Positions 47,872-63,922 of a stretch of 64,000 nt of DNA are shown here, piece after piece; the stretch's first letter is position 1; every line of letters starts with the position of its first letter. Source of the DNA: Flaviaesturariibacter aridisoli (GTDB taxonomy: Bacteria > Bacteroidota > Bacteroidia > Chitinophagales > Chitinophagaceae). The stretch spans positions 1 through 64,000 of the forward strand of contig NZ_SKFH01000009.1 of assembly GCF_004343705.1 (NCBI RefSeq). The letters run 5' to 3'. The notes under the pieces are model-generated. The model was not told the origin of the DNA and ran no database searches. It saw only the letters and a list, made by a program, of their open reading frames with translations. The translations under genes and the position numbers were made by a program.

Positions 47872-48702
47872 CTAAGCCAGCGTGTGCAGCGGTACGGCAT
47901 CTACGTCGGTATAGTCGCGGTTTTCGCCGGCCATACCCCAGATAAAACCGTAGTTGGCCGTGCCGCAGCCCGCATGGATCGACCAGGGCGGCGAGAGCAG
48001 CGCTTCGTGGTTGGCTACCACCAGGTGCCGCGTTTGCTGCGGCTCGCCCATCAGGTGAAATACCCGCTGCCCATCCGGCACATCGAAATAAAAATAGACT
48101 TCCATCCGCCGGCTGTGCAGGTGCGGCGGCATCGTGTTCCAAACGCTGCCCGTATCCAGGCGCGTCAGGCCCATCACGAGCTGGCAACTTTGGATGCCTT
48201 CGGCGTGAATATACTTGTAAATGGTCCTTCGGTTCGACGTGGCGGCATCGCCCAGCGTTACGGGCGCCGCTTCCGCGGCTGTGCATCGGTGCGCCGGGTA
48301 GACAGCGTGCGCGGGGGCCGACAGCAGGTAAAAATGAGCCGGGGCCGACGCATCGTCGGAGGCGAAGGTCACGGCCTGCACGCCGCGGCCCACATACAGG
48401 CCGTCGAGCTTGTCGAGCGAAAAGCTCTTGCCGTCCACCTGCACCGTTCCGGGTCCGCCGACGTTGATCACGCCCAGCTCGCGGCGCTCGAGGAAATAAT
48501 CCGACTTCAGTTCACTGTGCGTGTCCAGCTTCAGCGGGTTGCCCAGCGGCACAGCGCCGCCCACGATCATGCGGTCGTAGTGGCTGTAGACCAGCCGCAC
48601 GACGCCCGGTTGCATCAGCGACTGGATGAGGAAATTGCTGCGTAATTCTTCGGTGTTCATTGACGCGGTTTCGCGACGGCTCGATTCGTATCGTACTTCC
48701 AT
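47872..48702 (-). CDS. kduI: 5-dehydro-4-deoxy-D-glucuronate isomerase
   Basis: A 276-aa KduI that isomerises 4-deoxy-5-keto uronate (from unsaturated uronic acid) to 2,5-diketo-3-deoxygluconate. Zinc ligands are visible as His194, His196, Glu201 and His243 (MPPHLHSRRMEVYFYF and WSIHAG), each two positions from the E. coli ligands H196, H198, E203 and H245. The N-terminus MEVRYESSRRETASMNTEELRSNFL aligns with E. coli MDVRQSIHS..., so the start at 48702 is kept. It is the last gene of the susCD-kduD-kduI operon. Confidence 0.95.
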   Translation of the reverse strand: MEVRYESSRRETASMNTEELRSNFLIQSLMQPGVVRLVYSHYDRMIVGGAVPLGNPLKLDTHSELKSDYFLERRELGVINVGGPGTVQVDGKSFSLDKLDGLYVGRGVQAVTFASDDASAPAHFYLLSAPAHAVYPAHRCTAAEAAPVTLGDAATSNRRTIYKYIHAEGIQSCQLVMGLTRLDTGSVWNTMPPHLHSRRMEVYFYFDVPDGQRVFHLMGEPQQTRHLVVANHEALLSPPWSIHAGCGTANYGFIWGMAGENRDYTDVDAVPLHTLA

Positions 48703-48739: not shown

Positions 48740-49507
48740 TCAGCGGCCCATCCAGCCACCATCGACGGTGAGCAGGGTGCCGTGCACGTACGCTGAAGCC
48801 TGGGAGGCCAGGAAAACCGCGGGCCCTTTGAAGTCTTCCGGCTCGCCCCAGCGACCCGCGGGAATGCGGCCCAGGATAGCTGCGCTGCGCGGCGGGTCGT
48901 CGCGCAGGGCCTCGGTATTATCGGTAGCCACATACCCCGGCGCGATGCCGTTGACGTTGATGCCGCGGCCCGCCCATTCGTTGGCGAAGGCCTTGAGCAG
49001 CGAGCCCACCGCCCCTTTGCTGGCAGCATAACCGGGCACGTTGATGCCGCCCTGGAACGACAGCAGCGAGCAGGTGAAGATGATCTTCCCGCTCCCACGC
49101 GCCAGCATTCCCTTGCCAATCTCGCGGGTGAGGATAAAAGCCGCGTCGAGGTTGATGGCGAGCACCCGGTCCCAATAGTCGTCAGGATGCTCGGCCGCTG
49201 GTGCACGGAGGATCGTTCCGGCATTATTAACGAGGATGTCGATCTCCGGGTGGTCTTCGCGCAGCTGCCAGATGAAAGCGTAGAGGCTGTCGCGGTTGCC
49301 GATGTCGGCGGCATAGGGCCAAAAGCGGCGGCCCGTGGCGGTTACCATACGCTCGGTGTCGCTGCCCGGCCGCAGGGTGGCGGAATGACCGATGATGTCG
49401 GCGCCGGCTTCAGCGAGCCCGACGGCGATAGCCTGGCCGATGCCGCGGCTGCAGCCGGTAACGAGGGCTTTTCGCCCGGCGAGGGAAAAAGATTGCGGTG
49501 TCATCAT
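48740..49507 (-). CDS. kduD: 2-dehydro-3-deoxy-D-gluconate 5-dehydrogenase
   Basis: A 255-aa classical SDR that reduces the KduI product to 2-keto-3-deoxygluconate. It has VTGCSRGIGQAIAVGLAEAG, NNAGTILRAPAAEHPDDYWDRVLAINLDAAF (typical of KduD), the catalytic Ser region and YAASKGAVGSLLKAFANEW. It starts 2 bases after the susD stop; a second ATG three bases in is equally possible. It differs from the other SDR of this locus at 57543. Confidence 0.9.
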   Translation of the reverse strand: MMTPQSFSLAGRKALVTGCSRGIGQAIAVGLAEAGADIIGHSATLRPGSDTERMVTATGRRFWPYAADIGNRDSLYAFIWQLREDHPEIDILVNNAGTILRAPAAEHPDDYWDRVLAINLDAAFILTREIGKGMLARGSGKIIFTCSLLSFQGGINVPGYAASKGAVGSLLKAFANEWAGRGINVNGIAPGYVATDNTEALRDDPPRSAAILGRIPAGRWGEPEDFKGPAVFLASQASAYVHGTLLTVDGGWMGR

Positions 49508-49509
49508 GT

Positions 49510-51045
49510 TTAATATCCGGGGTTTTGCGTCAGCGGTTGCTGGGTGCTGTTATCGATCTCCCGTTGCGGGATCGGCAGCAGGAGGCGCTCGCGCGTCACG
49601 CGGCCCTGCAGCTCCGACAACGTCGTTACCGGCGCGGGGAACAGCGCATAGTGGCGTGCAAACTCGTGGGCGAAGTGGTCCTTCATCGTTTGCTCGGCGC
49701 TGACCGTAGTGAGCGTTGTGTTGAAACGAACGAGGTCGAACCAGCGCTGGTTTTCAAAGGCGAACTCAATGCGGCGCTCGGTGGAGAGGGCCTGCTCGAA
49801 CTGCGCGGTCGTAGTAATCGTGGCCGGGTCGATGGGCGGCTGCTGCGCGTTGCGCACGTGCACCCGGTTGATGAGGTCGATGCTGGCGGGCGTATTGCCC
49901 TGCGCCTCGGCGATCAGCAGCAGGATATCGGCATAACGAAGTACCGGCCAGTCGTTTTCTGCATCGCTCACGGTGGTCACCGGCGAGAGGTATTTCTTTG
50001 GATAGAGTCGGGTGTTGAAAGCGCCGATCAGCACCGGCTTCCGGGGATCGCCGTTGGTCAGCGTGTCGAGTTCGGCCGTGGGTGCGTTCAGACCTTTGCC
50101 GTCGCCATTGATAACCTGCGTGCCGCTGTTGAGGGGCGCAAACAGGTTGGCGAAGGGCGAGCCGGTGCCGAAGCCACCTGCGCGGAAACGGATGGCAAAC
50201 AGGATCTCACTGCTCATTTCGGAATTAATGGCGAAGATGCCGGCATAGGTCGGTGCGAGGCCGTAGCCGCTGTTGTCTTTCACATCAGTGAGCAGCGGCA
50301 GCGCCTCGGCTTTTCGGCCCTGTGTGAGATACACCTTGGCAAGCATTCCTTTGGCGGCCCAGGCGTTGGCGCGGCCGATGCTGGCCGAGGGGATCTGCCC
50401 GAAGGGCGCGCTGCCCAGGAACGAGACAGCCGTACGCAGGTCGCCTTCAATTAGCTTGTAGGTGTCGGCCACCGACGAACGCCCGATGCCGAGCGCCGCT
50501 ACCGGTGAGGTGGGCTGCGTTACGAGCGGAAGACCGCCATACAGGCGCACGAGGTTGAAATAATGATAGGCCCGGATGAACAGCGCTTCGCCCGCAAACT
50601 GCTTGCGGTCGGCTTCCGAGATGGCGGCGCCGATGCTGCCGAGGCTGCTGTTGCCCGAAGCGGCATCGTAATTAACACCCAGCTTCTGCAGGATCAGGTT
50701 GCTGTTGCGGATATTGGCGTAAGACTCCAGCCAGTACGACAACACGCCGCCGTGCGTGGACGATACGGCGAACATATCGAGTTCGTTCAGGTCCTGGTTC
50801 GACACCGAAGTGCTGCCGGTCTCGCCCTGCTTTGCGTTGTCGCTGCGCAGCTCGGTCACCTGCCACTCGTAAAAGAGCGGACCGGAGAGCCCAGAGTAGG
50901 CGCCGTTGATGCCGGCTCGCAGCTCGTCGGTGTTGTTGTAATAAGTGAATGAAGTGAGGTTCGACTCGGGGTAGAGGTCGATATTTTTCTTACAGGCGCT
51001 GGTGCCGGCGAGCAGCACGCCCAGGAGGATTGCAGTACGTTTCAT
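49510..51045 (-). CDS. SusD/RagB family outer-membrane lipoprotein
   Basis: A 511-aa surface glycan-binding lipoprotein. The signal peptide is lipoprotein type: MKRTAILLGVLLAGTSACKK, with Cys18 as the lipid-bearing residue. DELRAGINGAYSGLSGPLFYEWQ is the SusD-type N-terminal TPR region, and AGEALFIRAYHYFNLVRLYGGLPLVTQPTS is the most conserved SusD motif. TERRIEFAFENQRWFDLVRF-like sequence lies near the C-terminus. It pairs with the SusC barrel encoded 17 bases upstream and would act as the lid that captures oligosaccharides. Confidence 0.95.
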   Translation of the reverse strand: MKRTAILLGVLLAGTSACKKNIDLYPESNLTSFTYYNNTDELRAGINGAYSGLSGPLFYEWQVTELRSDNAKQGETGSTSVSNQDLNELDMFAVSSTHGGVLSYWLESYANIRNSNLILQKLGVNYDAASGNSSLGSIGAAISEADRKQFAGEALFIRAYHYFNLVRLYGGLPLVTQPTSPVAALGIGRSSVADTYKLIEGDLRTAVSFLGSAPFGQIPSASIGRANAWAAKGMLAKVYLTQGRKAEALPLLTDVKDNSGYGLAPTYAGIFAINSEMSSEILFAIRFRAGGFGTGSPFANLFAPLNSGTQVINGDGKGLNAPTAELDTLTNGDPRKPVLIGAFNTRLYPKKYLSPVTTVSDAENDWPVLRYADILLLIAEAQGNTPASIDLINRVHVRNAQQPPIDPATITTTAQFEQALSTERRIEFAFENQRWFDLVRFNTTLTTVSAEQTMKDHFAHEFARHYALFPAPVTTLSELQGRVTRERLLLPIPQREIDNSTQQPLTQNPGY

Positions 51046-51062: not shown

Positions 51063-54000
51063 TTAGAAGTTAACGTCGATGCCGAACTGGTAGCTTTTCG
51101 AAAGCGGGAAGGCGCCACGCTGGTAGCCATCGATCTGGGGGTCGTTGTAGCCGCCGGAGGTCATCCGCGCTTCGGGGTTGATGCCGCGGTAGCCGCTGGC
51201 GAAATGGTAATACAGGTTTTGCGCCGTGAAGTAAAAGCGCGCCGAGCTGAGGCGGATCGCTTTGGTCCATTTTGCGGGCAGCGTGTAGCCGACGATCAGC
51301 TCGCGCAGGGCCCAGTAGGAAGCGTCTTCCACCATATAGTCGGTAGCCACCCAGCTCACACCACCATTGGTGGAATAGGGTGTGCGGCCGTCGCCGGGGT
51401 TCATCGGGCTGATCCAGCGGTTGTCGATGTAGTTCCGGTTGACGCGCTTCGTTTCGTTGTAGCCGGCGTCTCCGTTCACGATCTGCCCGCCCTGCGATCC
51501 CTGGACCAGGAAGCTCAGGTCGAAAGAGCCCATCGTCACGTTGTTGTTGATGCCCCAGGTAAAGTCGGCGTACGGATTGCCGATCACCGTGCGGTCGTTC
51601 TGATCAAGCTTGTGGTCGCCATTGAGGTCGCGGATCTTGAGGCCGCCGGCGGTAAAGTAGCTGGTGGAAAGGGCGCTTGCGTTATACAGCAGGCTCAGCG
51701 AATCGGCTTCCGCCTTCGACTGGAACACACCGTCGGTCACGTAGCCCCAGTATTGTACCATCGGGCCGCCTACGATGTTGCGGTACTGGTCTTCGCGCTC
51801 GCCGGTCTTCGACAGCGTGTCGGGAAGCGAAACGAGCTTGTTGCGGTTCATCGAGAAGTTCAGAGCGGAGGTCCAGCGGAAGCGGTTGCGCACCACGTTG
51901 GTGCTGTTCAGCTCCAGCTCGATGCCCCGGTTGCGCACCTTGCCGATGTTTACATACGAAACCGTGGCGCCGGTGATGCCGAGGATCTCGGGACGCAGCA
52001 GCAGCTGGTCGCTCTTCGACTCGTACAGATCCAGCGAAACGTTGAGGCGGCCGCGGACCAGCGACAGGTCGAGGCCGGTGTTGAACTGGAAGGTGCGCTC
52101 CCAGGTAACGTCCTCATTGGCCAGCAGGTCGCTCGAGGGGATCATGCCGCCCGCCACCGTGCCGTTGCCCCCGCCGAATACGTAAGGCGAGGGGTATAGT
52201 TGCTCCACCCATACGAAGTCGGGGATGCGGTTGTTGCCGGTAAGGCCCCAGCTGCCACGCAGCTTCAGCTGGTTGATCCAGACCACTTTCTCCATGAATT
52301 TTTCCTGGCTCAATACCCAACCTGCCGACACGGCGGGGAAGGTGCCCCACTTGTGGCCGGGTGCAAACTTCGAAGAGCCGTCGCGGCGCAGCGAGGCGGA
52401 AAACAGGTAGCGGTCGTTGTAGCTGTAGAGCACGCGGCCGAGGAGCGAGTTGAGCCCCTGGCGCGATTTGCGGCTGAACGTAGCGAGCGGCGACACGTCT
52501 TTGGAAGCCGCCAGGTCGAGGGCCTGGATATCGTCGGTGGGGAAGTCGAGGCCGGTCACCTGCTGCGCGCTGTTGCGGGTGCTTTGCACCGTGTAGCCGC
52601 CGAGCAGGGTCATGTTGTGCTTGCCGAGTTTACGGGTATAGGTCAGCGTGTGTTCGGCAAGGAGGTCGATGCCCAGGTTGTTGTTGAACACACCCTTGTT
52701 GACCGTACCGTCGGCGCGCGCATTCTTCTTGTCGAAACGCAGGCGGTCGTTGGTATTGATATAAACGCTGCCCATAGCCTTGTAATCGAGGCCTTTGATG
52801 ATGTTGATGGTAATGTCGCCCGAGCTCACCACGCGGTATTCGTTGGCGAAGTCGGTGGCGTTCTCCATGATCGACTTCGGTGTGTTGTTGGCCGAACTGA
52901 AGGGCGTTTGCGGGCCCGAGGAGGTCCACATCGTGCCGTCGGGCATCAGCCCCGAATAATTAAGGCCGCTGAAGTGGCGCGCTTGTACCCAGTCGCCGGC
53001 TTTGATGCCCGCCCAGGCCGGGTTCTGGCGCACGAATGCAGCCGTGGCTTCGGTGTGGTATACCGGGAGGAATGAATAGAAGCGCACGAAGTCCATGTAG
53101 TTCACCGAAGGCTGCTCGCGCTTCGAATAGGAAGGGTTGATGTTGAAGGCCACCTTCACGCGCTTGCCGAGGTTGGCGTCGAGCTTCGCGCGGATGTTGA
53201 ACTTCTCGTATTCGCTGTGGTACATCAGGCCCTGGTCGCGCTGGTAGCCGCCCGACAGGTAGTAGCGCAGGTCGGAGCGGCCGCCGGATACGGAGAACTG
53301 CGCGTTCTTCTGGTTGGCATTGCGCAGTGCCTGGCTTTGCCAGTCGGTGGCCTGGCCGCCGAGGAGGTCGTTCTCGATCACGTAGCCCGCGCGCTCGTTG
53401 CTGGCGATAAGATTCGCATTGCCGGTAACGGTAGGATCTTTCGCCCGCAGCGACGCTTCGTAAAAAAGCAGGTTGGTGTACTCCGTTGTGGTCAGCATCG
53501 GGTAGGTCTGATACGCGTACTTGACACCGGTGGAAAACTTGAAGTTGTAGCGGGTGCGGTTGGCCGATCCGCTCTTCGTGGTAATGAGGATGACGCCTGC
53601 GGAGCCGCGCGAGCCGTAGATGGCGGCCGAGGCGGCATCTTTGAGCACTTCCACCGACTGTACGTCGGCGGGGTTCACGAACGCAAGGCCGTCGGGCACC
53701 GGGTGACCGTCCACCACCACCAGCGGGTCGGAGGAGGCGCCGAGTGAGGTGACGCCGCGCACGCGGATCCGCGGGTCGGAGCCGGCTTCGGAGCTCAGGT
53801 TCTGCACCTGTACACCGGCAATGCGACCCTGCAGCGCCTGGTCTACCCGCGACACGGGCGCCTGGTCGAGCTTTTCGTTCTGGTACTTCGAAACAGCGCC
53901 GGTAAGGTGCGACTTCTTCTGGGTGCCGTAGCCGATCACCACCACTTCGTCGAGCGCCTTGTTGTTGCGCTGCAGCTGTACCTCGATAACGGTGCGGTTT

Positions 54001-54263
54001 CCGATGGTAACCGTCTGGGTGCTGTAGCCGATGGAAGAAAAGATGAGCGATTTACTGCCCCCGTTCACGGTAACGCGGTAGGAACCGTCGCGGCCGGTCT
54101 GTACCGGGGTGTTCGTTTTCTCGGCCAGTACGCTGACGCCGGTCAGCGCTTCACCCGACGTGGCGTCGAGCACCCGGCCGGTCACTTCGCGCTGCTGGGC
54201 GTCGGCGGAAAGCCAAAACAGGCAATTCAGGGTAAAAAGCAGCAGCAATTTGTGCGTTCTCAT
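51063..54263 (-). CDS. SusC/RagA family TonB-linked outer-membrane transporter
   Basis: A 1066-aa oligosaccharide importer. The signal peptide is KLLLLFTLNCLFWLSADAQ; then a CarboxypepD_reg-like domain (REVTGRVLDATSGEALTGVSV) and a TonB-box-like LDEVVVIGYGTQKKSHLTGAV. The plug contains VQVQNLSSEAGSDPRIRVRGVTSLGASSDPLVVVDG and AASAAIYGSRGSAGVILITTK, both SusC signatures. The barrel ends in Phe (FGIDVNF). The start at 54263 follows from the signal peptide. An operator-like palindrome and a promoter lie just upstream. Confidence 0.95.
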   Translation of the reverse strand: MRTHKLLLLFTLNCLFWLSADAQQREVTGRVLDATSGEALTGVSVLAEKTNTPVQTGRDGSYRVTVNGGSKSLIFSSIGYSTQTVTIGNRTVIEVQLQRNNKALDEVVVIGYGTQKKSHLTGAVSKYQNEKLDQAPVSRVDQALQGRIAGVQVQNLSSEAGSDPRIRVRGVTSLGASSDPLVVVDGHPVPDGLAFVNPADVQSVEVLKDAASAAIYGSRGSAGVILITTKSGSANRTRYNFKFSTGVKYAYQTYPMLTTTEYTNLLFYEASLRAKDPTVTGNANLIASNERAGYVIENDLLGGQATDWQSQALRNANQKNAQFSVSGGRSDLRYYLSGGYQRDQGLMYHSEYEKFNIRAKLDANLGKRVKVAFNINPSYSKREQPSVNYMDFVRFYSFLPVYHTEATAAFVRQNPAWAGIKAGDWVQARHFSGLNYSGLMPDGTMWTSSGPQTPFSSANNTPKSIMENATDFANEYRVVSSGDITINIIKGLDYKAMGSVYINTNDRLRFDKKNARADGTVNKGVFNNNLGIDLLAEHTLTYTRKLGKHNMTLLGGYTVQSTRNSAQQVTGLDFPTDDIQALDLAASKDVSPLATFSRKSRQGLNSLLGRVLYSYNDRYLFSASLRRDGSSKFAPGHKWGTFPAVSAGWVLSQEKFMEKVVWINQLKLRGSWGLTGNNRIPDFVWVEQLYPSPYVFGGGNGTVAGGMIPSSDLLANEDVTWERTFQFNTGLDLSLVRGRLNVSLDLYESKSDQLLLRPEILGITGATVSYVNIGKVRNRGIELELNSTNVVRNRFRWTSALNFSMNRNKLVSLPDTLSKTGEREDQYRNIVGGPMVQYWGYVTDGVFQSKAEADSLSLLYNASALSTSYFTAGGLKIRDLNGDHKLDQNDRTVIGNPYADFTWGINNNVTMGSFDLSFLVQGSQGGQIVNGDAGYNETKRVNRNYIDNRWISPMNPGDGRTPYSTNGGVSWVATDYMVEDASYWALRELIVGYTLPAKWTKAIRLSSARFYFTAQNLYYHFASGYRGINPEARMTSGGYNDPQIDGYQRGAFPLSKSYQFGIDVNF

Positions 54264-54314: not shown

Positions 54315-54322
54315 TAAATATA
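54315..54322 (-). promoter_or_regulatory. -7 element of the susC-susD-kduD-kduI operon
   Basis: On the minus strand TATATTTA, one base off TAnnTTTG. The predicted start of transcription is near 54310, about 45 bases before the susC ATG. The palindrome at 54330-54345 lies directly upstream, where RNA polymerase would contact the -33 region. Confidence 0.5.
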
Positions 54323-54329
54323 GAGACAA

Positions 54330-54345
54330 AATTGGTCGACCAATT
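54330..54345. promoter_or_regulatory. Operator candidate 1, perfect palindrome AATTGGTCGACCAATT
   Basis: A 16-bp perfect inverted repeat upstream of susC, identical to the copy at 54448-54463. Its form, an AT-flanked TTGGTnnACCAA, resembles known operators of GntR/FadR-family uronate regulators such as UxuR and ExuR. The adjacent gntR gene is the obvious candidate to bind it. Confidence 0.8.
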
Positions 54346-54419
54346 GGCGAGTGAGCGTTGAAGTGACCACCATAAAAATTTGAGCGATTTGTATTCGTTT
54401 GTTTTTGAATGACTTACAA

Positions 54420-54437
54420 TTACCGGTAACGCTACCG
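54420..54437. promoter_or_regulatory. ACCGGTA repeat in the divergent control region
   Basis: TTACCGGTAA (54420-54429) is a perfect 10-bp palindrome followed after three bases by a TACCGG half-copy. It could be a second protein-binding site, distinct from the GntR-type palindromes. Confidence 0.4.
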
Positions 54438-54447
54438 GAAATTCCTG

Positions 54448-54463
54448 AATTGGTCGACCAATT
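54448..54463. promoter_or_regulatory. Operator candidate 2, perfect palindrome AATTGGTCGACCAATT
   Basis: The second identical 16-bp palindrome, 118 bases from the first. It lies about 47 bases before the gntR ATG and just upstream of a weak -7-like CGATTTTG (54474-54481), so binding there would give autoregulation of the gntR-lyase operon. Confidence 0.8.
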
Positions 54464-54509
54464 TTTTTAGCCGCGATTTTGCACTAAACTTGTCCCCAAA
54501 CGACAGCTT

Positions 54510-55220
54510 ATGAGTGAAGTATTGCCGGCCTTCCGGGAAGTAGCCCTCGAAGGGCCCGTCGACCTGATCATCCGGCAGATCAAAGAGCTCCTGATTTCCG
54601 GCGCCCTGAAGCCCGGCGACAAGCTGCCGCCGGAGCGCAAGCTCTCCGAGCAGATGGGCGTGGGCCGCACGCACGTGCGGGAAGCGCTGCGCAAGCTGGA
54701 GTTTTACGGCATTCTCCGCACCCGCCCGCAAAGCGGCACTTTCGTGGCCAGCATCGGCATCACGGCCCTCGAAAACCTGATCGCCGACGTGCTCAAGATC
54801 GATACGCCGTCCTTCGTGTCGCTTGTAGAAACACGGGTGCTGCTCGAAGTGGCCGCCGTGGAGCTCGCTTGCCAGCGCCGCACGGACGAAGACCTGCAAC
54901 AACTGCAGGCCGCCCTGGACGCTTACCTGGCCAAGGCCGAGCGCGGCATCAAAGCCGTTGACGAAGACCTCATGTTTCATCTCAGCATCGCCGACTGTGC
55001 CAAGAACAAAGCACTGAAATCGCTGCTGCTCATCATCATTCCCGACATCATCACCAACTATTCCATCTTTAAGGTGTGCGACACCGTTACCAATAAGGCG
55101 CTGCAGGAACATCAGTCGCTCTTTGAAGCCGTGCGCGACGGTGATGCCGCCGCCGGCGGTGCCCTCATGCGCGAGCACCTGCAGGGCGTGGTCAACTTCG
55201 CCCAGTCGCTCGTGCAATAA
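54510..55220 (+). CDS. GntR family regulator with FCD ligand domain (FadR subfamily)
   Basis: A 236-aa regulator. The winged helix spans residues about 15-80: LIIRQIKELLISGALKPGDKLPPERKLSEQMGVGRTHVREALRKLEFYGILRTRPQSGTFV, the classic GntR block. The FCD domain (about 95-230) contains VSLVETRVLLEVAAVELAC, DEDLMFHLSIADCAKN and QEHQSLFEAVRDGD, which supply the Asp and His residues for a metal or acid ligand. FCD members often sense uronates or keto-deoxy sugars. It heads the plus-strand lyase operon and faces two palindromes upstream. Confidence 0.92.
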   Translation: MSEVLPAFREVALEGPVDLIIRQIKELLISGALKPGDKLPPERKLSEQMGVGRTHVREALRKLEFYGILRTRPQSGTFVASIGITALENLIADVLKIDTPSFVSLVETRVLLEVAAVELACQRRTDEDLQQLQAALDAYLAKAERGIKAVDEDLMFHLSIADCAKNKALKSLLLIIIPDIITNYSIFKVCDTVTNKALQEHQSLFEAVRDGDAAAGGALMREHLQGVVNFAQSLVQ

Positions 55221-55241: not shown

Positions 55242-57521
55242 ATGAAACCAGCTTCCCTCTTCTCCTTCTTCGCCCTGCTCGCGCCGGCTGCACTCTTCGC
55301 ACAGTCCGACATTGCGGCCATCAATGCAGCCGTGCGGTCCGCCCGTCCCGGCGACACGATCGTGATTGCTGACGGTGAATACCGCGATGCCGAGCTGAAT
55401 CTCGTTGCCCGGGGCGATTCGCTGCGCCCCATCGTGCTGCGCGCCGCCACACCGGGCCGCGTGCTGCTCACGGGCAATTCGAGCCTGCGCCTCGCCGGCA
55501 CCGGCATCGAAGTGAGCGGGCTGTATTTCACCCGCGGCTTCTGCACGCGCGGCGCCGCCATCGAATACCGCAGCGGCAAGGAAGTGGCCAACTGGTGCCG
55601 CGTGACGGCCTGCGCCATCGACGATTTCAATCCGCCGGCTCGGGAGACCGAATCTTCCTGGATCCTCCTCTACGGCCGCCACAACCGCTTCGACCACAAT
55701 AGCGTGGCCGGCAAGTTGAACCAAGGCGTCACCTTCGCGGTGATCCTCGATGGCGAGCGCAACCAGCAGAACGAGCACCGCATCGAATACAACTACTTCG
55801 GCAGCCGCCCGCCGCTGGGGGCCAATGGCGGCGAAACGATCCGCGTGGGCACTTCGCAAACCTCGCTTACCTCCTCGCGCACGCGCATCGAGAACAACTA
55901 CTTCCAGGAATGCGATGGCGAGGTGGAGATCGTATCGATCAAATCCTGCGATAATAGCATTCGTAAGAACACCTTTTTCGAGAGCTCGGGCGTGCTGGCG
56001 CTGCGCCACGGCCACCGCAACCTCGTGGAGAACAACGCCTTCATCGGCAACGGCAAGCCCAACACGGGCGGCGTGCGCGTCATCAACGAAGGCCACACGA
56101 TCCGCGGCAACTATTTCTCCGGCCTCACCGGCGACCGCTTTTTTGCCGCGCTGGCCGTGATGAACGCCGTGCCCAACTCGCTGCCCAACCGCTACCACCA
56201 GGTGAAGGACGTACGCATCATCGGCAACAGCTGGGTAGACTGCGCCCATATCCAATTCCACGTGGGCAAGGATAACGAGCGTACACTCGCGCCCGAAAAC
56301 GTGACGCTGGCGGACAATTTTTTTTACAACCGTCATTCTGATACAGTATTCGTCGCCTTCGACAAGACCGACGGCTTTCATTTCGCCGACAACAGCGTGG
56401 TAACGCGTTCGGGACGATTCAGCCAACCGGGCTTTGCTGAAGTACGGTTTACCGCACTGCCGAAAAATACGACGGGCGCAGCCACGCGCACCCAATGTGG
56501 CGCACCCTGGTATGGGGTGAAAACCCCGCAGCAACGACGTCTTTCAGGACGCATTATCCCGGTGCGCGCGGGGCAGAATACACTGGCGGCAGCGCTGGAA
56601 AAAGCTTCCTTCGGCGACGTGCTGCAGCTGACGGACACGGCTACCTATCTCTTCGACGGGCCCACTACGGTGCGCACCTACGTGCGGATTGAAAGCCGCC
56701 TGCCTAAGGAGGCCAAAGCTTTGCTCCGTTACAACGGCACGCGCGGCCGCGCAGCCCTGCTTCAGCTTGCCGACAGCGCCGTACTGGAACTGTCGGGACT
56801 CGCCTTCGACAACGACGCCTTTGATGAGCGCGCATCCGCCTCCGCGGCCATCGCACCGGTAACGCCGATGAAGGGTCACTACAGTGTGTTCGTGGACCGC
56901 TGCGATTTTTACAACTATACCGAATCCAGCTTCAGCCCGCTGCGCGCGCAGCGGAACACCTACGCCGATACTGTCCGCTTCACTAATTGCCTGTTCCGCG
57001 ATCTGTCGGGCGATGCCATCTACCTCGCTGCTGAAAAAGACGACGCCGGCAAGTACAGCGCGGACTTTGTAGAAATACGGAACTGCGCCTTTTACCGCGT
57101 ACTCGGTCACTCGGTCGACCTGTACCGCGGCGGCTCCGACGAAAGCACGAGCGGCCCCACGCTGGTCATGGACCACTGCGTGCTCGAAGACGTCAACAAT
57201 AAGGAGCGCGGCGCCGGCCTGCGCCTGCTGGGGGTGCAGAACATCGTGGTAAAGAACACGCTCTTTTCCAACACGGGCCGTGGCGGCGCCTCCATCCGCC
57301 TCGACGAAACAAACTGGGACAAGATCATGATTACCAACTGCAATCTCTACCAATCGGGCCGCGTCGCTTCCTTCTGGGGGAAAGCCGTCAAGGGCCCGAT
57401 GTATACGCTGAAGCCCGCTTACCGCCGGTCGTCGGCCTATAATTTTTCAAACACGGTCACTTCTCCCCTGCTGGGTAAAGCCACCGACGGCGGTGCTATC
57501 GGCCTGCAGGGAGCCTTATAA
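55242..57521 (+). CDS. Polysaccharide lyase family 6, two-domain alginate lyase type
   Basis: A 759-aa secreted lyase (signal peptide ending PAALFAQ). The N-terminal parallel beta-helix has the PL6 site: Lys234 and Arg255 (VSIKSC, LALRHGH) as base and acid, and calcium ligands Asn195, Glu227 and Glu229. The spacings equal those of AlyGC (N181, E213, E215, K220, R241) and chondroitinase B. A second right-handed helix domain fills about 430-759, as in AlyGC, which is an exo-acting poly-guluronate lyase. Alginate is the best substrate guess. It would act in the periplasm, 21 bases downstream of gntR. Confidence 0.92.
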   Translation: MKPASLFSFFALLAPAALFAQSDIAAINAAVRSARPGDTIVIADGEYRDAELNLVARGDSLRPIVLRAATPGRVLLTGNSSLRLAGTGIEVSGLYFTRGFCTRGAAIEYRSGKEVANWCRVTACAIDDFNPPARETESSWILLYGRHNRFDHNSVAGKLNQGVTFAVILDGERNQQNEHRIEYNYFGSRPPLGANGGETIRVGTSQTSLTSSRTRIENNYFQECDGEVEIVSIKSCDNSIRKNTFFESSGVLALRHGHRNLVENNAFIGNGKPNTGGVRVINEGHTIRGNYFSGLTGDRFFAALAVMNAVPNSLPNRYHQVKDVRIIGNSWVDCAHIQFHVGKDNERTLAPENVTLADNFFYNRHSDTVFVAFDKTDGFHFADNSVVTRSGRFSQPGFAEVRFTALPKNTTGAATRTQCGAPWYGVKTPQQRRLSGRIIPVRAGQNTLAAALEKASFGDVLQLTDTATYLFDGPTTVRTYVRIESRLPKEAKALLRYNGTRGRAALLQLADSAVLELSGLAFDNDAFDERASASAAIAPVTPMKGHYSVFVDRCDFYNYTESSFSPLRAQRNTYADTVRFTNCLFRDLSGDAIYLAAEKDDAGKYSADFVEIRNCAFYRVLGHSVDLYRGGSDESTSGPTLVMDHCVLEDVNNKERGAGLRLLGVQNIVVKNTLFSNTGRGGASIRLDETNWDKIMITNCNLYQSGRVASFWGKAVKGPMYTLKPAYRRSSAYNFSNTVTSPLLGKATDGGAIGLQGAL

Positions 57522-57542: not shown

Positions 57543-58295
57543 ATGAAACTACAAGGAAAAGTAGCCATTGTAACCGGCGGCGCCCGCGACATCGGGCGCT
57601 CTGTAAGCATGGCCCTCGCACGTGAAGGCGCTAAAGTGGCGATCAATTACTTCGGCTCCGAAGAAGAAGCAAAAGAAACGAAACGATTTATCGATGAGGC
57701 CGGCGGCACCTGCATCCTCGTGCAGGGCGACATGACGCAATGGGACGCCGTGCAGGCGCTCGTGGCCGACACGCAGAAAGCCTTCGGCAACGAGATCCAC
57801 ATACTCGCCAACGTCGTCGGCGGTCTCTTCGGACGCAAGACCATCGAGGAGCAGGATGAAGCCTGGTACGACCTCCTGATGAACGTCAACATGAAGAGCA
57901 TCTTCTTCACCACGAAAGCGACGGTGGCCCACATGCCCAGCGGCAGCGCCATCATCAACTTCAGCTCGCAGGCGGCCCGCGATGGCGGCGGCGGCGGCGC
58001 CTCGCTGTATGCTACGGCCAAGGGCGCAGTGATGACCTACACGCGTGCCATGGCTAAAGAGTTCGGTCCCCGCGGCATCCGCGTCAATGCGGTCGCACCG
58101 GGCATGATCGCCACCTCCTTCCACGACCGCTTTACGAAGCCCGAGATCCGTACCAACGTGGCCGCTTCCACACCGCTCCGCCGCCAGGGCGATGCCGCCG
58201 ACGTGGCCGACCTCGTGGTGTACCTCGCGTCTTCGGAATCGTCGTTCCTCACCGGTACCAACATCGACATCAACGGCGGCACCTATTTCTCCTGA
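57543..58295 (+). CDS. SDR family oxidoreductase, possible DEH reductase
   Basis: A 250-aa classical SDR: VAIVTGGARDIGRSVSMALAREGAKVAINYF at the N-terminus, HILANVVGGLFGRKTIEEQ in place of the usual NNAG, INFSSQAARDGGGGGASLYATAKGAVMTYTRAMAKEFGPRGIRVNAVAPG with the catalytic Ser and YxxxK. In alginate loci an SDR at this place reduces 4-deoxy-5-keto-hexuronate (DEH) to 2-keto-3-deoxygluconate; I infer that role from context. The NVVGG substitution and Gly-rich loop set it apart from KduD in the same locus. Confidence 0.85.
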   Translation: MKLQGKVAIVTGGARDIGRSVSMALAREGAKVAINYFGSEEEAKETKRFIDEAGGTCILVQGDMTQWDAVQALVADTQKAFGNEIHILANVVGGLFGRKTIEEQDEAWYDLLMNVNMKSIFFTTKATVAHMPSGSAIINFSSQAARDGGGGGASLYATAKGAVMTYTRAMAKEFGPRGIRVNAVAPGMIATSFHDRFTKPEIRTNVAASTPLRRQGDAADVADLVVYLASSESSFLTGTNIDINGGTYFS

Positions 58296-58312: not shown

Positions 58313-59512
58313 ATGAAACTAGCGCCCTACCTGTTGCTGGCCGCCTCGCTGCTCAGCGGCTGTGCCACGATCCGCGCGGGTAACCCCGAGCCCGCGCCCC
58401 GCGTATTCGTGCTCAATGCCGGCGTGTTGCAGGCCAACCGCGGCCGCATTCGCAACGACCTGAAGCCAGCCTACGACAAGCTGCTGAGCGATGCCGGCAA
58501 AGCCCTGAAGGAAGGTCCCTTTTCGGTGATGGAGAAAAAGGACAACCCGCCGAGCGGCGACCGCCACGACTACATGAGCCTCGCGCCCTACTTCTGGCCC
58601 GACCCCACGAAGCCCGACGGCCTGCCCTATATCCGCAAGGACGGTCAGACCAACCCCGAGGTGAAGGAGTTCAAGGACAAGGAGTATATGCCGAAACTCT
58701 GCGAGTTGGTGCACACGCTCGGACTTGCGTATTATTTCTCCGGCGACGAACGCTACGCGGCGCATGCGTCGCTGCTGCTGCGCACCTGGTTTCTCGACCC
58801 GGCCACGCGAATGAATCCCAACCTCAATTTCGCGCAGGCCATCAAGGGGAAAAATGACGGCCGCGGCGCGGGCCTCATCGACGCCCGCCACTTCGTGAAA
58901 GTGGTGGACGCACTGGGCCTGTTGCAGGGATCGAAGTCCTGGACGGCTGCCGACCAGAAAGGCATGCAGCAATGGTTCGGTTCTTTTTTGAACTGGATGC
59001 AAACCAGCCCCATCGGCCGCGACGAGCTCGACGCCCGCAATAACCACGGCACCTTCTACGACGCGCTGCGCCTGTCGATGGCGCTGTACATCGACAGCAG
59101 CGACCTCGCCCGCCGCATCGTGACGAGCGCGCAGGAGCGGCTCGACTACCAGATGGATGCCGAAGGAAAATTCCCCAAGGAAATGGAGCGCACCATCGCA
59201 CTCCACTACAACACCTTCGACCTCGACGCCTTCTTTCTCATCGCCTCTATGAGCGAAAAGCTGGACATCGACTTCTGGCACTACCACAGCCCTTCGGGCG
59301 CTTCGCTGGAAAAGGGTTTCAACTTCCTGTATCCCTTTCTTTCGAAAGAAAAAGTGTGGACGGGCCAGCAGATCAAGCCCTTCGAATTCGAGGAAGGCTA
59401 CCCGCTGCTGCTCGCTGCAGGCCGCCACTACAACTGTGTGCCCTGCCCCGCGAAAGTGGATGCGCTCGCCGGCGACAAGGCCGCGACGCTGCGCTGGAAA
59501 CTGCTTTATTGA
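58313..59512 (+). CDS. Alginate-lyase-domain (PF05426-type) lipoprotein, PL5/PL38-like
   Basis: A 399-aa protein with an (alpha/alpha) barrel pattern. The N-terminus MKLAPYLLLAASLLSGCATI is a lipoprotein signal with Cys17. YMSLAPYFWPDPTKPDGLPYIRKDGQTNPE and GLIDARHFVKVVDALGLL are typical of PF05426. ARNNHGTFYDALRL has Asn244 and His245 as expected catalytic residues, with Tyr299 (IALHYNTFDL) as likely acid/base. Substrate may be alginate (poly-mannuronate) or glucuronan; PL5 and PL38 differ and I cannot separate them. It is the last gene of the plus-strand operon. Confidence 0.85.
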   Translation: MKLAPYLLLAASLLSGCATIRAGNPEPAPRVFVLNAGVLQANRGRIRNDLKPAYDKLLSDAGKALKEGPFSVMEKKDNPPSGDRHDYMSLAPYFWPDPTKPDGLPYIRKDGQTNPEVKEFKDKEYMPKLCELVHTLGLAYYFSGDERYAAHASLLLRTWFLDPATRMNPNLNFAQAIKGKNDGRGAGLIDARHFVKVVDALGLLQGSKSWTAADQKGMQQWFGSFLNWMQTSPIGRDELDARNNHGTFYDALRLSMALYIDSSDLARRIVTSAQERLDYQMDAEGKFPKEMERTIALHYNTFDLDAFFLIASMSEKLDIDFWHYHSPSGASLEKGFNFLYPFLSKEKVWTGQQIKPFEFEEGYPLLLAAGRHYNCVPCPAKVDALAGDKAATLRWKLLY

Positions 59513-60487: not shown

Positions 60488-63400
60488 TTAGTGTCCGACG
60501 AGGACGGTTTTCGTAAGGTTGACCGACTTACCGATGACCCGCGCCACGTAGATGCCGGGCGGCAGTCGGTGTACCAGGAATTCGGCGCTGGTGAAGCCTT
60601 GCTGCACGAACACGTTGCGGCGCATGATGGGGTGGCCGGCAATATCGTACAGGTACACATCGGCGAGGTCGGGCTTGGCGCTGTATACGCGCACGCGCAG
60701 GCTGTTGGCGCCGCTCATATAGGCCTGGATATGATCCAGGTCGGCACCCGTTGCGGGCAGCACCGACAGGCGGGCGTTCGTGTACACGAAATTGTAGTTG
60801 GCCGATACGCCCGTAGTGAACGTGATGGGATAATAGCCCGGCGCCGAAGTGGCCGTGGCCGTGCTCGTGGGCACCGGCGCCGTGGGCAGGCTCGCCACAT
60901 TCTGGCCCAGCACGAAGCCGGTGATGCTGTAGCGGAAGGCAGGGTTGGCGTCGCCCTGCATCCGCGTCGAATCAAAGGCGCGTACCGTGAGGTTGGCTTT
61001 GTTTACGGTCAGCGTTTGCGCTTGCGCTGCGGCCGGGAAGAAGAACGGGCTACCGGGCTGGCTGGCCGTGATCGTGGTCGTGCCGGCACCGGTTACATGC
61101 ACGGTGTTCCCCGTGACGGTGGCCACCGACGGATTGCTGCTCGTGAGCTGGATCGGAATGGTCAGGTTGGAGCTCGATACGGCCAGGGCGAAGTCGGCCG
61201 CACCATAGGTCTTGGGCTGGATCGCGTTGAACGTGATCGTTTGCGCGCTGCGCGGGCTCACGGTCAGCGTACCGCCCTGCATCGTGATGCTGTAGTTGGC
61301 GGCCGTCGCGCCGCTTACCGTGATCGGGTATGTGCCCGGGGCGGAGGTCAGGGTGGCCGTGGTGGTTGCCACGGGAGGCGTAAGCAGTACCGATTCGTTC
61401 TCGCCATTTACAAAGCCGGAGTAGGAAACCGTCAGCGTTGGGTTCGCGTCGCCTTCGGGACGCGTCAGGTCGGTCGCCCTAATGGTCAGCGGCGCCTTGT
61501 TGACGGTCAGCGTATGCGTGACGTCGGCGGCGGGGTAAAAGCCGTCGCTGGCCTGCGTGGCGCGGATGTCGGTGGTGCCTACACCTGTCACGTGGATCTC
61601 GCCTGAAGCGGTCACTGTGGCCACGGCGGGGTTGCTGCTGGTATACTGCACCGCGGTGCTGCTGTTGGCCGTCAGTACGCCCGCAGTGAAGTCGGCATCG
61701 CCGTAGTTCTTGGCGGGCATGGCATTGAATACAAAAGGATTGGCCGGAGGACGTGCCCCGACGCTGAAGGCGCCGAAGGTGGCGAAGGTCGACTCGATGT
61801 TGTTGGCGGTGTTGTCGCCGCTGCCTACCGGCGCCGACCAGCCCGTACCACTATTGGTAATAAAGCCGATCTCGCTGTCGGCGAAGGAGGCGAACACCGA
61901 GCCTTCGAGCGGGCTCACCCATTGGAGCTTCACGGCGCTGCTGCCGCTGCCGGCCACCTGGCTGATGTTCCAAACCGCGTTCACCACGGTCTGGCGCTCC
62001 TGCAGGGTCAGCGGCGTGCCGTTGGGCGTGCCGTTGGTCGTGATGCCTTCAAACACGGCTACCGTATAGTCGGAGGCGACCGAAGGCGTCAGCACAGCGG
62101 GCAGGTAGTTGGCGGCCGTTCCTACGGGGAAGGTCGAAGGAGTAGTAAGTCCGTCGCGGCGGAGGAGGCCCTGGCTGCCCGTTGTGGCATCGGTAGCCGT
62201 AACGAAATAGTTGCTGCCGCCGATCGCACCGCCGATGCTGGCGCCCGCGAGCAGGTGCAGCACGTCGCCGGGGCGGATGGTGAGCCTGCCGCTGTTGAGG
62301 GTGAGGGTACCCGAGAACTCCGCGCTCGCATTCGTTGTGCCGGCCGCATTGAAGGTTGCATCGCGGATCGAGAGCACCGCGGGTGCCGTGGTGGAAATAC
62401 CGAAAGGCTGCGTGGTGGCGGCATTGATTACGTAGCTGATGCCATCCTGGTACGTGCGGGCATCGCTCACGCCTACCGAACCGGCGGCGGCATCGAAGCC
62501 GTCGGGGCTGGCCGTGATGAGCGTGGCGCCGCTGCCGCTGATGCTGAGCGAAACGCCGGAGGCTGTGGCCGTGAGGGGACGCGACACCCAGATGGAGTCG
62601 AGGTTGGACGTCACGCTCACCACGCGGGTGCCGGGCGTGATGCCAGCGCCGGCGATGCTGACACCCTTGGTCAGCGTAGTTGTACCTGTGGCATTGCGGA
62701 TCAGGAAAGCACCGGCAGTAGTTGTGCCCGTAGCCGTGAACGCGGTGGCGGGACGGCGGGCCGTAAACGTGGCCGTACCGACCAGCTGCCTGGTACCGAA
62801 GTTGAGGCGCCCGTAAATGTTCGCGTTGTTGCTGACGGTCACATTGCGCTCGAGCGTCACCTGCGCATCATCCGATACGGTAAACGAGGGCACCGTGATG
62901 TTGCCGATACCGCTGATCGTTTGCGGCACGTTGCCGGCAAATACAAGCTCGTTGGTGGAGCCGGCGGGCGCGCTGAGGTTGCCGTTCGCCTCGAGGTTGC
63001 CGAGGATGACCGTCTGACCGCTGGTATGCGTTACAAAGGTGGAGCCGGGGGCGATGCTGAGCGTGTCGATGCGGTTGATGCTACCGTCGGAGGTCAGTGT
63101 GGCGCCGTTCTCGACGATCACGTTGGGATACGATTTGCGGTTGAAGAAGGTGCCGGAGCCCGTCGCCGGGTTCGAAGCTTTCATATGGAAGTAAGAACCC
63201 GGACGAAAGTCGATCGGCATGAAGAAGCCGCCGCCGGAAGCCGAGCCCATAGGACTGAAGCCGCCTTCGTAATAGTAGTGCGCGCCGGCCTCGAAAACGA
63301 CCCACTGCTCGCTCGACTGCGTGCTGTTGCCGAAGGGATAAGCCGCCGAGGCGGCCGTGATATTGCTGGTGAATTTCGAGCCGGCCTTGAATACCAGCGA

Positions 63401-63922
63401 CCCCGGCGTGCCTGCGGTGCTGTTGGCGATGCGGGCCTGCAGGTTGGTGATCATGCTGAAGTTGCCGCTCACCGTGCCGGTGCACACCGCCGCCAGCGCG
63501 ATCACGGTGCTGCCGCCGGCCGTGGTCATTGCCAGCGAGGAGCCGGCCTCGATCACAAAGTCGTCACCCGCGCCGCCGCTCACGTTGATGGTGCCGGTGC
63601 CCGTCAGGCGGGTGAAGGCTACGTTCGCGCCGTTACGGAACTTCAGTTGCGCGCAGGTAACGCCGCCGTTGATGTGCACGATGGCCTGCCCCGTGGCGGG
63701 CGTTGCCCCGCCGATGTTGCTGCCGTCGAAAACGAGGATGTCGGAAGCGCCCGTGGCCGAAGGTCGCGTGCTGCCCGAGCCGTCCAGCGCCGTGTTCCAG
63801 CTCGAAGCGGTGGTCATGTTGACACCGCCGGCCGCCGTGCCGCCCACCCAGTAGTAGGTGTTCTGTCCGAATGCCGCGGCCAGGCAAAGCATGGCCATGC
63901 AGGTAAGCAGGTATTTTCTCAT
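60488..63922 (-). CDS. Large secreted MBG-domain protein with type IX-like sorting domain
   Basis: An 1144-aa protein. A signal peptide (YLLTCMAMLCLAAAFGQ) is followed by a beta-helix-like region rich in Thr, Gly and Asn (about 20-720). Two Ig-like BID_2 domains (about 727-810 and 895-975) alternate with two MBG domains (TVNKAPLTIRATDLTRPEGDANP and TVNKANLTVRAFDSTRMQGDANP). The last 85 residues (LRVRVYSAKPDLADVYLYDIAGHPIMR, LPPGIYVARVIG) look like a type A type IX secretion tail. It is probably a cell-surface or matrix protein. It lies 8 bases upstream of the esterase gene. Confidence 0.85.
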   Translation of the reverse strand: MRKYLLTCMAMLCLAAAFGQNTYYWVGGTAAGGVNMTTASSWNTALDGSGSTRPSATGASDILVFDGSNIGGATPATGQAIVHINGGVTCAQLKFRNGANVAFTRLTGTGTINVSGGAGDDFVIEAGSSLAMTTAGGSTVIALAAVCTGTVSGNFSMITNLQARIANSTAGTPGSLVFKAGSKFTSNITAASAAYPFGNSTQSSEQWVVFEAGAHYYYEGGFSPMGSASGGGFFMPIDFRPGSYFHMKASNPATGSGTFFNRKSYPNVIVENGATLTSDGSINRIDTLSIAPGSTFVTHTSGQTVILGNLEANGNLSAPAGSTNELVFAGNVPQTISGIGNITVPSFTVSDDAQVTLERNVTVSNNANIYGRLNFGTRQLVGTATFTARRPATAFTATGTTTAGAFLIRNATGTTTLTKGVSIAGAGITPGTRVVSVTSNLDSIWVSRPLTATASGVSLSISGSGATLITASPDGFDAAAGSVGVSDARTYQDGISYVINAATTQPFGISTTAPAVLSIRDATFNAAGTTNASAEFSGTLTLNSGRLTIRPGDVLHLLAGASIGGAIGGSNYFVTATDATTGSQGLLRRDGLTTPSTFPVGTAANYLPAVLTPSVASDYTVAVFEGITTNGTPNGTPLTLQERQTVVNAVWNISQVAGSGSSAVKLQWVSPLEGSVFASFADSEIGFITNSGTGWSAPVGSGDNTANNIESTFATFGAFSVGARPPANPFVFNAMPAKNYGDADFTAGVLTANSSTAVQYTSSNPAVATVTASGEIHVTGVGTTDIRATQASDGFYPAADVTHTLTVNKAPLTIRATDLTRPEGDANPTLTVSYSGFVNGENESVLLTPPVATTTATLTSAPGTYPITVSGATAANYSITMQGGTLTVSPRSAQTITFNAIQPKTYGAADFALAVSSSNLTIPIQLTSSNPSVATVTGNTVHVTGAGTTTITASQPGSPFFFPAAAQAQTLTVNKANLTVRAFDSTRMQGDANPAFRYSITGFVLGQNVASLPTAPVPTSTATATSAPGYYPITFTTGVSANYNFVYTNARLSVLPATGADLDHIQAYMSGANSLRVRVYSAKPDLADVYLYDIAGHPIMRRNVFVQQGFTSAEFLVHRLPPGIYVARVIGKSVNLTKTVLVGH

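Follow-up and report, generated by a model that had tools for sequence, protein, structure and literature searches.

Twin palindromes in a divergent alginate locus of Flaviaesturariibacter aridisoli are probably operators of the adjacent AusR-type GntR regulator

Which protein controls the two arms of a divergent uronate locus in the Bacteroidota species Flaviaesturariibacter aridisoli, and does it do so from one site or from several? The locus lies in the 64,000 nucleotides analysed here (the window, the start of contig NZ_SKFH01000009.1). An intergenic region of 246 bp separates a minus-strand arm, susCD-kduDI, from a plus-strand arm, gntR-PL6-SDR-alginate lyase, and holds two copies of the palindrome AATTGGTCGACCAATT (Table 1). 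The original prediction had described a 16-mer that is perfect at two places between a SusC gene on the minus strand and a GntR/FCD gene on the plus strand, and both the exact copies and the flanking genes are as claimed. It had further proposed that the GntR product controls both arms from these sites, with a loop between them as a possibility. Our analysis suggests, with a probability of about 0.88, that the two palindromes serve as operators for the GntR/FCD protein encoded next to them, a local repressor of the AusR type that would bind each box as a separate dimer and be released by a ligand. Thus, the proposal of operators for the neighbouring regulator, one per promoter in a uronate (here alginate) locus, is retained, while the loop is not.

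Alginate is the best-supported substrate of the locus, judging from the predicted gene products. Among solved structures, BcAlyPL6 is nearest to the PL6 protein (E 7.6e-227) with chondroitinase B far behind (7.6e-30), and the nearest solved structures of the PF05426 protein carry the name alginate lyase. KduI and KduD are usual in pectin and glycosaminoglycan pathways, so another uronan is also a possible substrate. For susC, the ATG at 54263 was chosen as start over the mechanically assigned TTG at 54329. Past the end of the window, the same contig, C9, continues with genes for an MFS transporter and for another beta-helix protein that matches Chondroitinase B weakly (L051:3937-6326); they are possibly an extension of the locus, and no exact GntR box adjoins them. 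Within the window, a 1144-residue open frame with repetitive stretches occupies 60488-63922 on the minus strand and looks by eye like a surface protein.

Table 1. Coordinates of the genes and predicted control elements of the divergent locus, as positions in the window
Feature	Coordinates	Strand	Basis
kduI	47872..48702	-	NF002091 428.9 bits, cut-off 250
kduD-like SDR	48740..49507	-	TIGR01832 319.5 bits, under cut-off 338.85
susD	49510..51045	-	PF07980, PF14322
susC, TonB-linked outer membrane transporter	51063..54263	-	TIGR04056 over cut-off
-7-like element TATATTTA, susC promoter	54315..54322	-	Element 8-9 nt from box in 6/6 divergent regions
Operator O1, AATTGGTCGACCAATT, AusR-type GntR box, susC promoter	54330..54345	.	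Predicted from sequence
LacI-type operator CCGGTAACGCTACCGG, one unpaired position pair	54423..54438	.	Predicted; matrix score 26.6
Operator O2, AATTGGTCGACCAATT, identical copy, AusR-type GntR box, gntR promoter	54448..54463	.	Predicted from sequence
-7-like element TAAACTTG, gntR promoter	54485..54492	+	TAnnCTTG 22-25 nt from box in 5/5 genus loci, not in L087
gntR, FadR-subfamily (FCD) regulator, AusR type, predicted repressor	54510..55220	+	PF00392 and PF07729 over cut-off; tree
PL6 alginate lyase	55242..57521	+	PF14592; BcAlyPL6 (7dmk) E 7.6e-227
SDR, probable DEH reductase (role inferred)	57543..58295	+	PF13561
PF05426 alginate lyase	58313..59512	+	3nfv, 'alginate lyase', E 9.8e-88

In the window, the two copies of AATTGGTCGACCAATT are both exact and no further place matches at up to three mismatches; 100 shuffles gave a mean of 0.12 matches at this threshold, and none gave two. 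Perfect 16-bp palindromes occur seven times in the window, and AATTGGTCGACCAATT alone is repeated. The whole assembly (4,374,430 bases in 84 contigs, 95.73% complete) holds the two exact copies, none with one mismatch and a single one with two, which sits inside an RloB-like reading frame (C8:3640). Allowing up to three mismatches gives 17 places versus 16 for a reversed-pattern control, so the exact pair alone stands out. Exact boxes of the form ATTGGTNNACCAAT are likewise found only beside gntR in this genome, and allowing one mismatch brings this form to 7 places and its reversed control to 6. A regulon elsewhere in the 4.37 Mb is not apparent, as every site other than the two boxes departs from the 16-mer at two or more positions. 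The genome-wide search thus did not turn up the many copies at unrelated genes that the original prediction had named as evidence against itself.

The arrangement is conserved where the locus occurs. A GntR protein of at least 74% identity is encoded in five of 18 genus genomes (the present one, G003, G007, G008 and G010), and the PL6 gene (E 1e-30 or better) in the same five; three of the 13 genomes that lack the locus are less than 90% complete, which makes its absence less sure there. Twin boxes are kept in the susC-gntR interval of all five loci; in G007 and G008, the one on the gntR side has a single mismatch to ATTGGTNNACCAAT. All five also keep both -7-like elements, TAnnTTTA 8-9 nt past the box on the susC side and TAnnCTTG 22-25 nt past it on the gntR side. 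In L087, from a different genome of the Chitinophagaceae, the twin boxes are spaced by 118 bp and the element on the susC side is present, but TAnnCTTG is missing from the matching place on the gntR side. When the six divergent regions were aligned, the two boxes were by eye the best conserved blocks.

The available text of PMC7366714 gives the Bacteroidota -7 consensus as TAnnTTTG, and by this standard each palindrome does lie beside a predicted promoter, as had been proposed: TATATTTA and TAAACTTG each carry five of the six fixed bases and are one base off the consensus. Scans for E. coli-type sigma-70 promoters and E. coli-type terminators found none. The susC-side box stops 9 nt upstream of its -7 element and spans roughly -33 to -20, and the gntR-side box abuts the -33 region. 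Distances from box to gene are narrow as well, with 67-71 bp to susC in the five genus loci (50 in L087) and 48-55 bp to gntR in all six divergent regions. The latter range includes a corrected start in G010, where the distance is 59 bp from the start used and 50 bp from an ATG nine bases upstream.

To follow the box beyond the family, we searched genome contigs with a profile of 11 aligned homologues. At least 556 stretches code for a relative; of these we used the best 80, comprising 54 counted as Bacteroidota (53 by title, L104 by tree position) and 26 others; two of these loci, L086 and L114, are those of G008 and G026 and were already part of the query alignment. Each gene was scanned from 500 bases upstream to 45 bases inside. 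In this best 80 of at least 556, TTGGT-N2-ACCAA is exact in 35 of the 54 Bacteroidota homologues and present with at most one mismatch in 42, while 12, including Zobellia barbeyronii L122 and Lacinutrix L116, have no box at that threshold in the scanned stretch. Spacers of 0, 1, 3, 4, 5, 6 and 7 gave 0 or 1 exact matches each, and 1 to 4 at one mismatch, and 100 draws of shuffled half-sites gave no match in the same 54 upstream stretches. Among the best 80, a spacer of 3 is exact in none of the 54 Bacteroidota loci and in 7 of the 26 other homologues, for which a spacer of 2 is exact in none. Spacer length separates the two groups of homologues.

Among the homologues, promoters with a single box occur beside others with two or three. 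Neighbouring genes were typed via BLAST clusters with Pfam-identified representatives and by BLAST against the window proteins. SusC or SusD is encoded in the available flank of 37 of the 54 Bacteroidota loci, and an alginate-lyase-type gene (PL6, PL7, PL17 or PF05426 type) in that of 32, of which 26 have the box. No lyase is found in the available flank of the other 22, some of these flanks being short, and 16 of them still have the box, which indicates that the box follows the regulator and not alginate genes as such.

The regulator itself is well delimited. No FCD-domain protein other than the gntR product was found in the assembly. GntR domains occur in one further protein, a 494-residue frame whose length makes it probably MocR-like. 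With one FadR-type protein next to the sole pair of exact boxes, the operator assignment is tight. In a tree of 63 rows (56 of the best 80 loci, the present genome, G003, G010 and four E. coli proteins), the window protein groups with Zobellia homologues in a Bacteroidota clade of 43 rows with support 100/100, and UxuR, ExuR, PdhR and LldR of E. coli fall outside. The Zobellia rows, to which the window protein is 43-45% identical, are four homologues from three species other than Z. galactanivorans, AusR itself not being among them. The suggested kinship with UxuR/ExuR is therefore not borne out, and orthology was rejected on this separation and on model scores of 70.6 against a cut-off of 442 and 65.1 against 396. 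What we find is instead a GntR HTH with an FCD domain (PF00392 and PF07729 over cut-off), a SusCD alginate locus with SusC, SusD, PL6 and a PF05426 lyase, and a common operator beside promoters across homologues, with CTGGTTAACCAA, one mismatch from the box, at -81 to -87 in three of the four Zobellia loci. These features suggest that the gntR product is an AusR-type alginate repressor whose operator would be the same as that of AusR. The FCD residues D153, H157, H201 and H223 are invariant in 11/11 aligned homologues; in FCD proteins, residues of this kind bind a metal and carboxylate ligands.

The phylum-wide footprint, the conserved promoter geometry and the sole FCD protein together argue that the boxes are GntR operators. 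One GntR dimer would occupy each TTGGT-CG-ACCAA box, bound separately. The susC-side box, over and between the -33 and -7 elements, would keep polymerase off susCD-kduDI, and the gntR-side box, at -33, would keep it off gntR-PL6-SDR-alginate lyase, the presumed extent of that operon. Since gntR belongs to the repressed plus arm, it would repress itself. Release would come when an alginate degradation product, such as an unsaturated oligo-uronate, DEH or KDG, occupies the FCD domain; the ligand is probably such a breakdown product, as reported for AusR.

Three other readings of the twin boxes have to be set against this one. That they are chance or structural repeats without function has a negligible probability: when the 246-bp intergenic region was shuffled base by base 20,000 times, at least one perfect 16-bp palindrome arose in 89 cases and a repeated one in none, and the boxes are kept in all six related divergent regions. 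A different, unlinked regulator could be imagined because the GntR assignment is drawn from sequence alone; however, across Bacteroidota the homologues of gntR come with this same box, and its half-site is the FadR-subfamily consensus TKGT/ACMA, so this reading is very improbable. Joint action of both sites through a DNA loop closed by GntR oligomers is less remote, yet unlikely. The boxes are 118, 118, 138, 120, 118 and 118 bp apart in the six divergent regions, and over these distances the helical phase varies by only 0.3 turn, which would suit a loop. Nonetheless, 118 bp corresponds to 11.24 turns at 10.5 bp per turn, so that the spacing of 118 bases originally noted is right, and the number of turns is not whole. 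Moreover, the distance from each box to its own gene hardly varies, which by itself largely sets the box spacing, and FadR-type proteins bind DNA as dimers. In the available part of the study by Suvorova et al. (PMC4494728), 71 of 100 FadR-subfamily divergons with double sites are read as each site serving its own operon. Together with the box-to-gene distances, this favours independent binding over the loop that had been raised as a possibility.

A second regulator may act alongside the GntR protein. Between the two GntR boxes lies a further palindrome, CCGGTAACGCTACCGG, absent from the original prediction, which makes a second, LacI-family input at the divergent region likely. Scored with a matrix built solely from ten sites upstream of five lacI orthologues, it reaches 26.6, is equalled in 0 of 1000 shuffles and is the sole such site in the window. 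The LacI-family gene lies outside the window on the same contig (C9:69050-70102), about 14.6 kb downstream of CCGGTAACGCTACCGG, with tandem sites upstream; its product has a PF00356 (HTH) and a PF13377 (sugar-binding) domain. The assembly holds four exact copies of the motif CCGGNANCGTTNCCGG, namely the window site, two before lacI and one before a PfkB-family gene that comes after uxaC. Among NCBIfam models, the PfkB-family protein is matched best by one for an aldolase/sugar kinase fusion and one for KDG kinase, neither match reaching cut-off, and we consider it a probable KDG kinase. With at most one mismatch, motifs of the CCGGNANCGTTNCCGG type number 38 and 31 on the two strands of this genome, against 19 and 19 for the control.

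A switch with two inputs, in which a LacI-family protein at this site joins the AusR-type GntR protein and either couples expression to the flux of uronates or, from about -67, modulates the gntR-lyase promoter, would add to the best explanation, and we hold it to be slightly better than an even bet. The tandem sites that precede each of the five lacI orthologues match the window site, which is a 16-nt palindrome with central CG, a usual operator form of LacI-family proteins in the available text of PMC4052901. A LacI box lies between the GntR boxes in four of the five genus loci (also 26.6 in G010, two at 18.5 in G003, and 11.3 in G007), and lacI orthologues (E 1e-100 or better) co-occur with gntR and PL6 in the same five of 18 genomes. 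Apart from the lacI sites, the only other exact site in this genome is just before the probable KDG kinase gene, and G010 likewise has a site at that position. On the other hand, the site is absent in G008 and, outside the genus, in L087, G025 and L137, it is weaker in G007, and its position shifts among genomes. The kinase-side site falls within the end of the uxaC reading frame and occurs only in the present genome (G000) and G010; it is absent in G008, G003 and G007 are without that kinase orthologue, and G010 has a further exact site on C43. More tentative, and a little short of even odds, is the full picture of a compact 246-bp switch, in which a GntR dimer gates each promoter separately and a KdgR-like LacI protein, inherited along with the GntR protein and active at the KDG kinase gene as well, senses flux later in the pathway and tunes the lyase side. 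In the available portions of the literature searched, no description was found of GntR and LacI control of one alginate locus.

AusR, a GntR-family repressor of alginate utilisation in Zobellia galactanivorans, was reportedly described by Dudek et al. in 2020 (NAR gkaa533). The accessible parts of three sources present it as a GntR repressor of alginate genes with an alginate product as ligand (PMC8286568, PMC7874173, PMC8073546), which contradicts the initial view that a GntR switch is unusual in Bacteroidota. In the excerpts at hand, AusR binds its operator in single, double or triple copies (PMC7874173), and of the 29 regulators in a set of 32 polar alginate gene clusters, from Proteobacteria and Bacteroidetes together, 16 are GntR proteins. 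The present system is like AusR in its GntR/FCD protein within a SusCD alginate locus, in the clade shared with Zobellia homologues, three of four of which are preceded by a similar box, and in having one to three operator copies. It differs in its divergent promoter pair with one box each, in the extra LacI-type site and in KduI/KduD on the SusCD arm. UxuR and ExuR of E. coli share the FadR subfamily and uronate catabolism, and UxuR also the 2-nt half-site spacing, with three such boxes in the E. coli uxu region; the available text of PMC4494728 gives a 2-nt spacer for UxuR boxes and lists ExuR with 3 nt. In contrast, both fall outside the clade of the window protein and have other neighbouring genes. 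For Bacteroides, the parts of PMC3878776 and PMC4052901 available predict LacI-family KdgR, UxaR and UxuR for uronates, and these, with UxmR, resemble the present LacI protein in family, in the 16-nt palindrome with central CG and in a site by a probable KDG kinase gene. The likeness is one of family and site form; our LacI protein matched 17 NCBIfam models, none of them at cut-off.

The regulator of this locus thus very probably belongs to the already described AusR kind, with the predicted LacI-type site between the boxes as a modest twist. AusR-type control of alginate genes would then extend from marine flavobacteria to several other Bacteroidota groups, among them Chitinophagaceae, Sphingobacteriaceae, Saprospiraceae, Reichenbachiella and Pontibacter, and a single operator rule, TTGGT-N2-ACCAA, could allow such regulators, together with their targets, to be predicted from sequence. 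In the literature collection searched, no paper linked Flaviaesturariibacter with alginate. Through the LacI site, joint control of one polysaccharide locus by two ligand-sensing regulators can be tested here; if true, the two-regulator switch would be a dual-input alginate locus in Chitinophagaceae.

Relatives may have wider box regulons. Among the matches listed, one-mismatch places of ATTGGTNNACCAAT exceed the reversed control in nine of the ten relatives searched, with 20 against 7 in G003, 32 against 12 in G007 and 72 against 27 in G035; in G025 the excess is only 34 against 29, and G008 is tied at 2 against 2. In G025 (L045) and in Pinibacter (L137), a long AT-rich inverted repeat was seen by eye between the boxes, and in L137 a PL17-type lyase takes the place of susC as divergent partner.
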